Position numbers and translations under genes: made by a program | Notes under the pieces: generated by a model | The model's input: only the letters and a program-made list of their open reading frames with translations | Told to the model about the DNA's origin: nothing | Databases searched by the model: none | Shown: positions 1,985 through 62,530 of the stretch, piece by piece | Position numbering within the stretch: the first letter of the stretch is position 1 | How the letters are laid out: every line of letters starts with the position of its first letter | Source of the DNA: Niabella drilacis | Lineage (GTDB): Bacteria; Bacteroidota; Bacteroidia; Chitinophagales; Chitinophagaceae | Length of the DNA stretch: 64,000 nt | Direction of reading: 5' to 3' | Assembly (NCBI RefSeq): GCF_900101395.1 | Contig: NZ_FMZO01000008.1 | Coordinates: forward strand, 62,001 to 126,000

Positions 1985-2710
1985 TAAAAATTATGGTTGC
2001 GGAATATTTTAATAGGGGGTATCACATTTTTCAAAAACAAATATCTTCCATTGGCCCAGCGGGGAAGGGTATTCCACCTCCGCCAGCGACGATCATGCGG
2101 ACACATCTTTTGAAATGTGATACAACAATTTGATCATAGCAAAGGATTCCTCAATTATGCTGAGCGGATGCCTCCCCATTGTTGTGCCGGGCTTTTCATA
2201 AGTAACATAACTATCAAAACGGCGATGATGAAGACTTCAGAGAAATCAGAATGAAGCTTTTTCTTTTCGACGCTTCTGATAAATCGCATATGCGTCAAAT
2301 TAGTGAACATAACCTTAAAGACCCATATTGTTAGATCAAGAACGGTTGCTGAAATTTCTGCTTTCAATCCCGGGATTAGTGCTCCGGATGGAGCATCGTG
2401 TTTATAGCAATGTTTCATTATTGGGGTCGGGCTCCTGGGACGCCCCGTGTTGCGCGGCACCCTATGGGGCCGGTTGCTCTATGATTACGGTTCTATAAAC
2501 ACGTGGCGCCCACATCCTTATATACCGGTTTTATACCTTTCACCTTAAACTGGTTCTTTGAATGTTTTTGCCCTTCATTATTTTATCTTAGTTGAACAAA
2601 CGCTTTATTAGAAGCATCCGTTAAAAAATATTATGCACCCTTTTAATAAAGGACCTGATACCTGAACGGTGGCTGGCAGGCCCCGTTGACTAAGGGAAGA
2701 AGTATACGCC
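1985..2710. other. Gene-free stretch holding a degraded repeat copy
   Basis: More than 700 bases carry no convincing gene. Short open frames exist on both strands (for example 1927-2133 and 2155-2460), but they have no recognisable product, and the longer one runs through repeat DNA. The only structured part is the degraded palindromic element at 2381-2503. The far right, 2520-2700, is AT-rich and featureless. Confidence 0.6.
2381..2503. repeat. Degraded copy of the palindromic element
   Basis: This segment shares the core of the two intact elements at 33509 and 62279. It has a GCTCC/GGAGC hairpin (2381-2394) and the 11-base arm CGTGTTTATAG at 2397-2407, with its exact reverse complement at 2493-2503. 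Between the arms is different GC-rich hairpin DNA. I could not find the 16-bp terminal repeats or a target duplication, so it is either a decayed copy or a related shorter unit. Confidence 0.6.
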
Positions 2711-33441: not shown

Positions 33442-33508
33442 ATGAGGCCTGCCGTAATAGAACTCCGGCAGCAACCTGCAAAAAGCTTGCTTGGATCTGA
33501 TCAATAAT

Positions 33509-33706
33509 CAGGGCAAACGCATCTGGTTTCAGCATTGCTCAGCTCCGGCGGAGCTGCGCGTTTATAACAATGTGCTGTTTTGATCACCCCGGCTCCTGCA
33601 GGAGCCGGGGTTTCCGCTTTAATACCTTGCTATAAACACACGGCATACAATGCCTGAAAATGTTCCTGGTGCGCTCTTTTTACCCAATTTAGATGCGTTT
33701 GCCCTG
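33509..33706. mobile_element. MITE-like palindromic element, copy 1 (198 bp)
   Basis: The ends are perfect 16-base inverted repeats, CAGGGCAAACGCATCT (33509-33524) and its complement (33691-33706). The element is flanked by a perfect 10-base direct duplication, GATCAATAAT, at 33499-33508 and 33707-33716. Inside are four paired regions: CAGCTCC/GGAGCTG (33540-33556), a perfect 24-base palindrome (33587-33610), a TTTATA/TATAAA long-range arm and GGCAT/ATGCC (33642-33654). It encodes no protein. It is about 200 bp, like copy 2 at 62279-62478, and must have been moved by a transposase in trans. Confidence 0.9.
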
Positions 33707-33738
33707 GATCAATAATGACCGTTTAAGACAAAATGCTG

Positions 33739-62258: not shown

Positions 62259-62530
62259 CCTTGTAATCAGAGTTGCCGCAGGGCAAACGCCTCTGATTTC
62301 AGCATTGTTCAGCTCCGGAGGAGCAGCGTGTTTATAGTAATCTGCTGTTTTATCAACCCGGCTCCTGTAGGAGCCGCGTGTTTCCCCTTTAATATCTTGC
62401 TATAAACACGCGGCACTTACAGTGCCTGAAAATGCTCCTGGTGTGCTCTTTTCACCCAATTTAGATGCGTTTGCCCTGAGAGTTGCCGGCCTTCTGATAT
62501 GTTCTCTTAAGAAAAACCGTATCTTTAAGG
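62259..62530. other. Gap holding mobile element copy 2
   Basis: Apart from the 200-base element and its duplicated target, the gap has only 62489-62530, with TATCTTTA (62510-62517), a near match to a -7 box, in front of the truncated nuclease frame. Confidence 0.6.
62279..62478. mobile_element. MITE-like palindromic element, copy 2 (200 bp)
   Basis: The left end CAGGGCAAACGCCTCT (62279-62294) and right end AGATGCGTTTGCCCTG (62463-62478) are inverted repeats with one mismatch. Flanks are a perfect 10-base direct duplication, AGAGTTGCCG, at 62269-62278 and 62479-62488. Internal hairpins match copy 1 at 33509: GCTCC/GGAGC (62312-62324), CGTGTTTATAG with CTATAAACACG (62327-62337, 62400-62410), CGGCTCCTGTAGGAGCCG (62359-62376) and GGCAC/GTGCC (62412-62426). 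No protein is encoded. Confidence 0.92.

Follow-up and report, generated by a model that had tools for sequence, protein, structure and literature searches.

A repeat family in Niabella drilacis with ISAs1-type ends and, very probably, a gene-less IS200-like interior

MITEs derived from insertion sequences are usually shrunken copies of their own IS. In the part of a review considered here they are short, non-coding, multicopy units with inverted ends and a target duplication, mobilised in trans (PMC10969869), and a word search of that text returned no mention of ISAs1, RAYT or Bacteroid. Anabaena sp. 90 carries an ISAs1 element and 147 MITEs, whose repeats have, according to the section consulted, no evident similarity to the ends of its IS (PMC3542288). 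A second kind of small repeat accompanies Y1 transposases. In the REPIN/BIME systems of TnpA_REP, or subclass 1.2, paired inverted hairpins flank the Y1 gene and gene-less copies lie elsewhere; the motif Y---Q--HH marks this subclass, which is described, in the portion of the source used, as generally devoid of typical terminal IS200 structures (PMC6006769). In TIRtrons, as far as the excerpt covers them, Y1 genes have flanking inverted repeats able to form a repeat family (PMC3733652).

The element described here lies in a 64,000-nucleotide stretch of the genome of Niabella drilacis (the window, to which unprefixed coordinates refer). It occupies 198 bp (33509-33706) between a gene for an aldose 1-epimerase (PF01263) and a Phosphoesterase-family gene (PF04185), in agreement with a preliminary description that had named galM and a phosphoesterase gene as its neighbours, and none of the listed ORFs of at least 80 aa in the window overlaps it. 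Direct reading bears out the non-coding unit with perfect 16-bp inverted ends and a perfect 10-bp duplication reported there: the 16 nt at 33509-33524 are fully complementary to 33691-33706, and the same 10 bases stand on either side. The 16-mer end occurs six times in the window with up to three mismatches, against 0.56 expected, and a second full copy has one mismatch in its left end and a 10/10 duplication. The features are as follows.

33499..33508, no strand: left target duplication GATCAATAAT, by direct reading, 10/10 against the right copy
33509..33524, plus strand: left terminal inverted repeat CAGGGCAAACGCATCT, an ISAs1-type end identical to the ISAs1 ends in loci L088 and L134
33541..33568, plus strand: hairpin A (33541-33555) and its tail GCGCGTTTATAAC (33556-33568), a variant of GCGTGTTTATAG
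33587..33610, no strand: central perfect hairpin B, CCCCGGCTCCTGCAGGAGCCGGGG
33629..33654, minus strand: inverted tail GCTATAAACACACGG and hairpin A' (33642-33654)
33691..33706, minus strand: right terminal inverted repeat, which with 5 more bases makes the 21-mer AATTTAGATGCGTTTGCCCTG, common to intact ISAs1 elements
33707..33716, no strand: right target duplication GATCAATAAT, by direct reading
62269..62278, no strand: left target duplication AGAGTTGCCG of copy 2
62279..62478, plus strand: copy 2, full, 200 bp, 89% identity to the first
62479..62488, no strand: right target duplication AGAGTTGCCG of copy 2
2380..2503, plus strand: related hairpin frame, hairpin-CGTGTTTATAG ... CTATAAACACG, lacking ISAs1 ends and belonging to a second gene-less family built from the same modules

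In the 6.1-Mb host genome the 16-mer is found 81 times with at most one mismatch (44 forward, 37 reverse) and its backward control 0 times, and a DNA search returned at least 69 matching pieces, a lower bound given that 40 of 95 first-look candidates were scored. Pairing of ends within the fetched loci gave 45 pairs, of which 40 were kept, some of them decayed copies; five were dropped as re-pairings, chance or degenerate (L001 at 1182 and 477, L016 at 1501, L070 at 470, L071 at 485). The L016 pair (1501-2789) encloses 1289 bp whose translations read as a regulator-like ORF and a fragment of a dehydrogenase-like one; having neither a duplication nor a transposase ORF, it was rejected as an element and is regarded as a chance pair. 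The flanks of the 40 copies, compared at offset 10, agree at 10/10 positions in 14 copies, at 9/10 or better in 21 and at 8/10 or better in 28, the other 12 having no duplication of that quality, and when the left flank of one copy was set against the right flank of another, 3 of 1560 combinations reached 8/10. Exact flank matches at lengths of 7, 8, 9, 11, 12 and 13 numbered 0, 0, 1, 0, 0 and 0. Strong base preference is not apparent by eye in the 21 best targets.

To find empty sites, the joined flanks of six copies were used as queries against the 17 genomes of the genus. The target of the copy at C21:7071 is single and uninterrupted in G011 (L244), with 8/10 bases preserved, and that of the copy at C43:18803 is single in G010 (L262), with 9/10, both counted by eye. 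The preliminary description had attributed the element to transposition by an enzyme encoded elsewhere and had proposed a genome-wide look for inverted end pairs and for empty sites in relatives. The 40 paired copies answer the one proposal, and copy number, 10-bp duplications and the two congener empty sites together support the attribution; the other proposal succeeded for C21:7071 and C43:18803 but not for 33509-33706, since for both copies in the window the matches in the 17 genus genomes stop short of the junctions. At the level of sequence, these data demonstrate past transposition with a 10-bp stagger; the mobility that they make visible is that of past insertion events only. The plasmid records searched contained no match to the element, and a search for MITE-like DNA beyond the genus matched 2 of 195 family genomes (up to four candidates scored in each), one being the host itself and the other matching over hairpin stretches only.

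The ends point to the mobilising family. Of 39 genomes searched, 9 contain the exact end, and every one of these belongs to the genus. In G014 (whose contig C73 is, over its first 1000 bases, MKRO01000073 of Sphingobacteriales bacterium 41-5) a 1223-bp element at C56:7764-8986, without a target duplication, carries the exact end on either side and an ISAs1 transposase broken into two pieces (206 and 66.6 bits with NF033564, cut-off 70). A Chitinophagaceae MAG (L134, CANGFK010000270.1) has an intact 1189-bp ISAs1 with identical ends, a 10/10 duplication and an intact 366-aa transposase ORF (393 bits). Both classified IS-sized elements with identical ends carry ISAs1 genes, and an IS sharing the ends, which the preliminary description had suggested looking for, exists in an intact and in a broken version. 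ISAs1 matches above the family cut-off occur in 2 of the 17 genus genomes, G014 and G007, the latter with six intact copies of a related ISAs1 whose ends are CAGGGCAGACGCATTA; in each of the five copies aligned, a 10-bp duplication can be read by eye. The host assembly (G000), rated 100% complete, gave 0 matches to PF13808 and NF033564 at E 0.001, a result that is not final for a draft of 45 contigs.

IS4 was considered as mobiliser and rejected, the sole PF01609 match in the host being an IS1182 transposase; that IS1182 (L108) was rejected in turn, with one end match at 3 mismatches within the fetched 3.7 kb. Of the two families named earlier, ISAs1 accordingly stands, on the same ends and 10-bp duplications, and IS4 falls, as no IS4 element with these ends was found: ISAs1, not IS4, is the mobilising family. 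From the ends and the duplication length we infer that an ISAs1 transposase acted on this unit. Short, non-coding and multicopy, with terminal inverted repeats, a target duplication and ends common to an autonomous IS, the element has the attributes of a MITE; among those of an ISAs1-mobilised unit it has the shared ends and the 10-bp duplication, and lacks a transposase gene in the same genome.

The end itself has a wide distribution. The 21-mer AATTTAGATGCGTTTGCCCTG occurs in at least 114 stretches of species genomes under the record names Cyanobacteria, Legionella, Chitinophagaceae, Chloroflexi and others. Among 80 matches listed, a left end lies within 2.6 kb in 31 and none is in reach in 49; 26 of these 31 paired units are shorter than 300 bp, 18 of the 26 are flanked by duplications that match at 8/10 or better (9/9 in one case), and an ISAs1 transposase match is nearby in 7 of the 80. 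Because it is present in several phyla, often on short units with ~10-bp duplications, we regard it as a widespread ISAs1 end, and the earlier reading needs qualifying to the extent that, by the 21-mer scan, the end is not peculiar to the host. Short ISAs1-ended elements of 127, 174 and 259 bp were observed outside this Bacteroidota genus, with duplications of ~10 bp (8/10 in L176). They come from a cyanobacterial MAG, JAHHHE01 (L131, L147, L168, L196, L205, L207), Legionella worsleiensis (L174-L176) and a MAG named Akkermansia (L165), and apparently represent families of ISAs1 MITEs in other phyla. A single ISAs1 end in this way links short repeats across several phyla.

The interior tells a different story. 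As judged by comparison of sequences, the hairpin-GTGTTTATAG frame inside the element is not ISAs1 and matches the flanks of one IS200-like Y1 clade. Copies exist mainly in forms of ~198, 243 and 408 bp. The first half of the 243-bp form comprises an ISAs1 end, hairpin A, GCGTGTTTATAG, hairpin B, CGTGTTTG and a short centre, which is followed in the second half by TTTTACGCGG, hairpin B', CTATAAACACGC, hairpin A' and the other ISAs1 end; in the 198-bp form the two B hairpins appear to have collapsed to one. Likeness to ISAs1 elements ends, by eye, ~21 bp from the right end. The hairpin A and tail module of the 243-bp form matches flanks of Y1 transposase genes in congeners, and some of the interior matches in G005, G008 and G016 adjoin such genes, the gene replacing the centre. 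The same modules, in the same order, lie on both sides of the Y1 gene in G016 (L317) and in G008 (L289, with a broken gene frame), on the 5' side only in G005 (L277), and in G013 (L315) with both modules 3' and module B alone 5'. Scores of the interior halves beside these genes are 58 (L277, 5'), 51 and 40 (L317), 54 and 30 (L289), and 36 and 59 (L315), and on the matching sides they exceed all of 200 or 500 base shuffles; the 3' flank of L277 has no match (13, against a shuffle maximum of 27).

Flank scoring was given 34 Y1 loci, of which 23 passed a motif filter and 11 were dropped, L289 among the latter being scored separately. Three of the 23 match (L277, L317, L315); 19 of the remaining 20 lie within their shuffles, and L318 is slightly above on one side (24 versus 22). 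To cover the loci dropped by the filter, all 35 Y1 loci were also scored whole and unfiltered, with the result that L277, L289, L315 and L317 reached 36-58 and 43-59 for the two halves and the other 31 at most 29 and 31. The proteins of L289, L315 and L317 are 81-85% identical to that of L277 (L289 over 100 residues) and all others no more than 55%. Both Pfam and NCBIfam place the L277 protein as IS200-like, with 63.8 bits for the IS200 model (cut-off 55) and 28.7 for the REP model (cut-off 80); since it passes the IS200 cut-off and stays under that of the REP model, we describe the core as REP-like without classing it as REP. From module order and similarity we infer that the interior descends from a Y1 element. 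The preliminary description was right on the ISAs1 part of its family assignment and had missed the resemblance of the interior to a different transposon family.

The five Y1 matches of the host do not include the cognate clade (47% for L305, 37% each for L316 and L323, no match for L324 and L325). With no ISAs1 and no cognate Y1 clade found in the host assembly, neither enzyme is seen alongside the element. The frame without ISAs1 ends is present in the host, where L326, L327, L328 (window 2380-2503), L330, L331 and L336 align as the second family. Beyond the host, a hybrid with ISAs1 ends, an 8/10 duplication and a hairpin-CTGTGTTTATAG interior occurs in the congener G005 (L089) and, in part, in G015 (L274). 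The GTTTATAG motif was found in 1 of 9 short ISAs1-ended elements from congeners and 0 of 9 from other groups, and is missing in those examined from G001, G007, G008 and G012; as most such elements lack it, ISAs1 MITEs comprise several lineages, of which the hybrid is one. A unit with both ISAs1 ends and a Y1 gene was not found in the four Y1 loci of the clade, L289 having a weak left ISAs1-like end only (17/21, against at most 15 in 50 shuffles). In the host, the Y1 gene L316 (G000 C16:400486), which has the Y---Q--HH motif, is flanked on each side by hairpin repeats of another kind, around CCCCGCAGGGG, and hairpins similar to these lie near L331, L333 and L334; they are another repeat family, possibly cognate to a subclass 1.2 Y1 gene.

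We consider it very probable that the element is a non-autonomous hybrid in which ISAs1 ends, served in trans by an ISAs1-family DDE transposase, enclose a gene-less IS200-like (Y1, HUH) frame. The 16-21 bp ends would be what the transposase recognises; it would then cut out or copy the unit and insert it at a target cleaved with a 10-bp stagger, leaving the 10-bp duplication. Between the ends, hairpin A with GCGTGTTTATAG and hairpin B with CGTGTTTG on the way in, and TTTTACGCGG with hairpin B' and CTATAAACACGC with hairpin A' on the way out, would be the Y1 frame, with the short centre at the place of the gene. Frame and ISAs1 ends would have been joined in one ancestral unit, after which the outer ends alone would have mattered for spread, and the alignment suggests that the 198-bp form lost the centre between the two B hairpins.

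The copies have been rearranged in several ways. A 31-bp centre is recognisable in 23 of the 40 copies, and in two of these (L050, L052) it is inverted relative to the rest, between the B hairpins. L067, at C16:374995-376256 in the host, is an array of successive element-related units of ~256 bp with tandem-like spacing. Three 408-bp copies, each at a site of its own and flanked by duplications of 9/10, 10/10 and 10/10, all contain, in the same place and orientation, a 161-bp second repeat with ends GAGCCTGTTTAAA, which is most simply read as a single nested insertion after which the composite moved; of the 17 columns that vary among the three, the first hairpin B contains 8 and the nested repeat 1. 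The 161-bp repeat, with TTA-type 3-bp flanks, is also found by itself (L120-L129; C14:61472-61635, just before the window start) as well as nested in L022, L028 and L064, and across the query its 40 scored copies (from 72 first-look candidates) show 99-100% identity, which points to very recent spread. It may resemble the IS1031 group (IS5 family). A dual-system transposon, in which ISAs1 moves the whole unit (DDE) and any Y1 enzymes present act on the hairpin core as ssDNA, flipping, duplicating or collapsing the centre, would explain the flipped centres (2/23), the changeable B hairpin, the array at C16:374995-376256 and the collapse in the 198-bp form; we nevertheless hold this reading to be unlikely.

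Hairpins are common in MITEs, and the interiors of the short ISAs1-ended elements without GTTTATAG, namely all nine from other groups and eight of nine from congeners, are of other kinds, so that an ordinary internal-deletion ISAs1 MITE with hairpin-rich, chance or terminator-like padding unrelated to Y1 deserves consideration. We find it highly improbable, however, in view of interior halves that match the flanks of a single Y1 clade, on both sides in G016 and G008 and partly in G013, while 31 other Y1 loci stay below the scores of that clade, of an interior unlike ISAs1 elements beyond ~21 bp at the right end (by eye), and of a hairpin frame that recurs elsewhere in the host genome without ISAs1 ends. 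Retention of the repeats as regulatory or terminator hairpins, mobility being past history, likewise has something in its favour: the element strand folds as ssDNA far better than its shuffles (z -6.5), and, by a crude ORF caller, 1 of 40 copies lies inside an ORF and an ORF of at least 80 aa runs across the joined flanks in 10 of 40. Yet among the 34 copies with ORFs on both sides only 2 have convergent flanking ORFs, against 22 co-directional and 10 divergent, so that shared terminators are not the theme; a structured RNA identity was rejected, no Rfam family matching at gathering score (three matches were weak); and duplications and empty sites show insertion, not function. On balance this account, too, is improbable.

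Somewhat more credible, though still doubtful, is that the mobilising ISAs1 resides in the cell but is missing from the 45-contig draft, in which case the family would not be orphaned. Pieces of the element at or near contig starts (C4:1-373, C9:3-346, C30:112-297) are what is expected when repeats break contigs; on the other side, the genome is rated 100% complete and two family searches at E 0.001 turned up no ISAs1 match in it.

Returning to the hybrid reading and to the systems with which we began, the element shares with ISAs1-family IS (NF033564) its 16-bp ends, its 21-bp right end as in L134 and its 10-bp target duplication, and differs from them in having no transposase gene and an interior that is not IS-derived. 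It is like IS-derived MITEs in every general property listed for them in the part of the review cited above (PMC10969869), but its inside looks like another transposon class. With REPIN/BIME repeats it shares inverted hairpin pairs at a cognate Y1 gene, which are present in congeners (on both sides in L317 and L289, on both with module B alone 5' in L315, on the 5' side in L277) and not in the host; the canonical GT[AG]G foot of REP is not seen, the tails by eye being GCGTGTTTATAG and GCGTAAA, and the L277 protein is not a REP-associated tyrosine transposase by the curated model. In contrast to the subclass 1.2 elements as presented in the portion of PMC6006769 used here, hairpin pairs flank the clade and the core has moved inside ISAs1 ends; the clade has the very motif of the subclass reported as generally lacking such pairs. 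TIRtrons offer a parallel in their flanking inverted repeats and potential to form a repeat family, although ISAs1-type ends and a 10-bp duplication are not described for them in the excerpt consulted (PMC3733652). An ISAs1-ended element with a Y1 core was not found in titles and abstract openings, a scope outside which many subscription papers fall, and within the literature thus covered, in part, a foreign Y1 core in an ISAs1 MITE is a variant that we did not find. If the proposed origin is correct, the small non-coding repeat would be a natural hybrid of two unrelated transposition systems, neither enzyme of which was found in the host assembly, and would make it possible to ask whether DDE elements persist better when they have a hairpin core. 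As a mobile element it is ordinary, an ISAs1 MITE of known kind; the foreign core is the unusual part.
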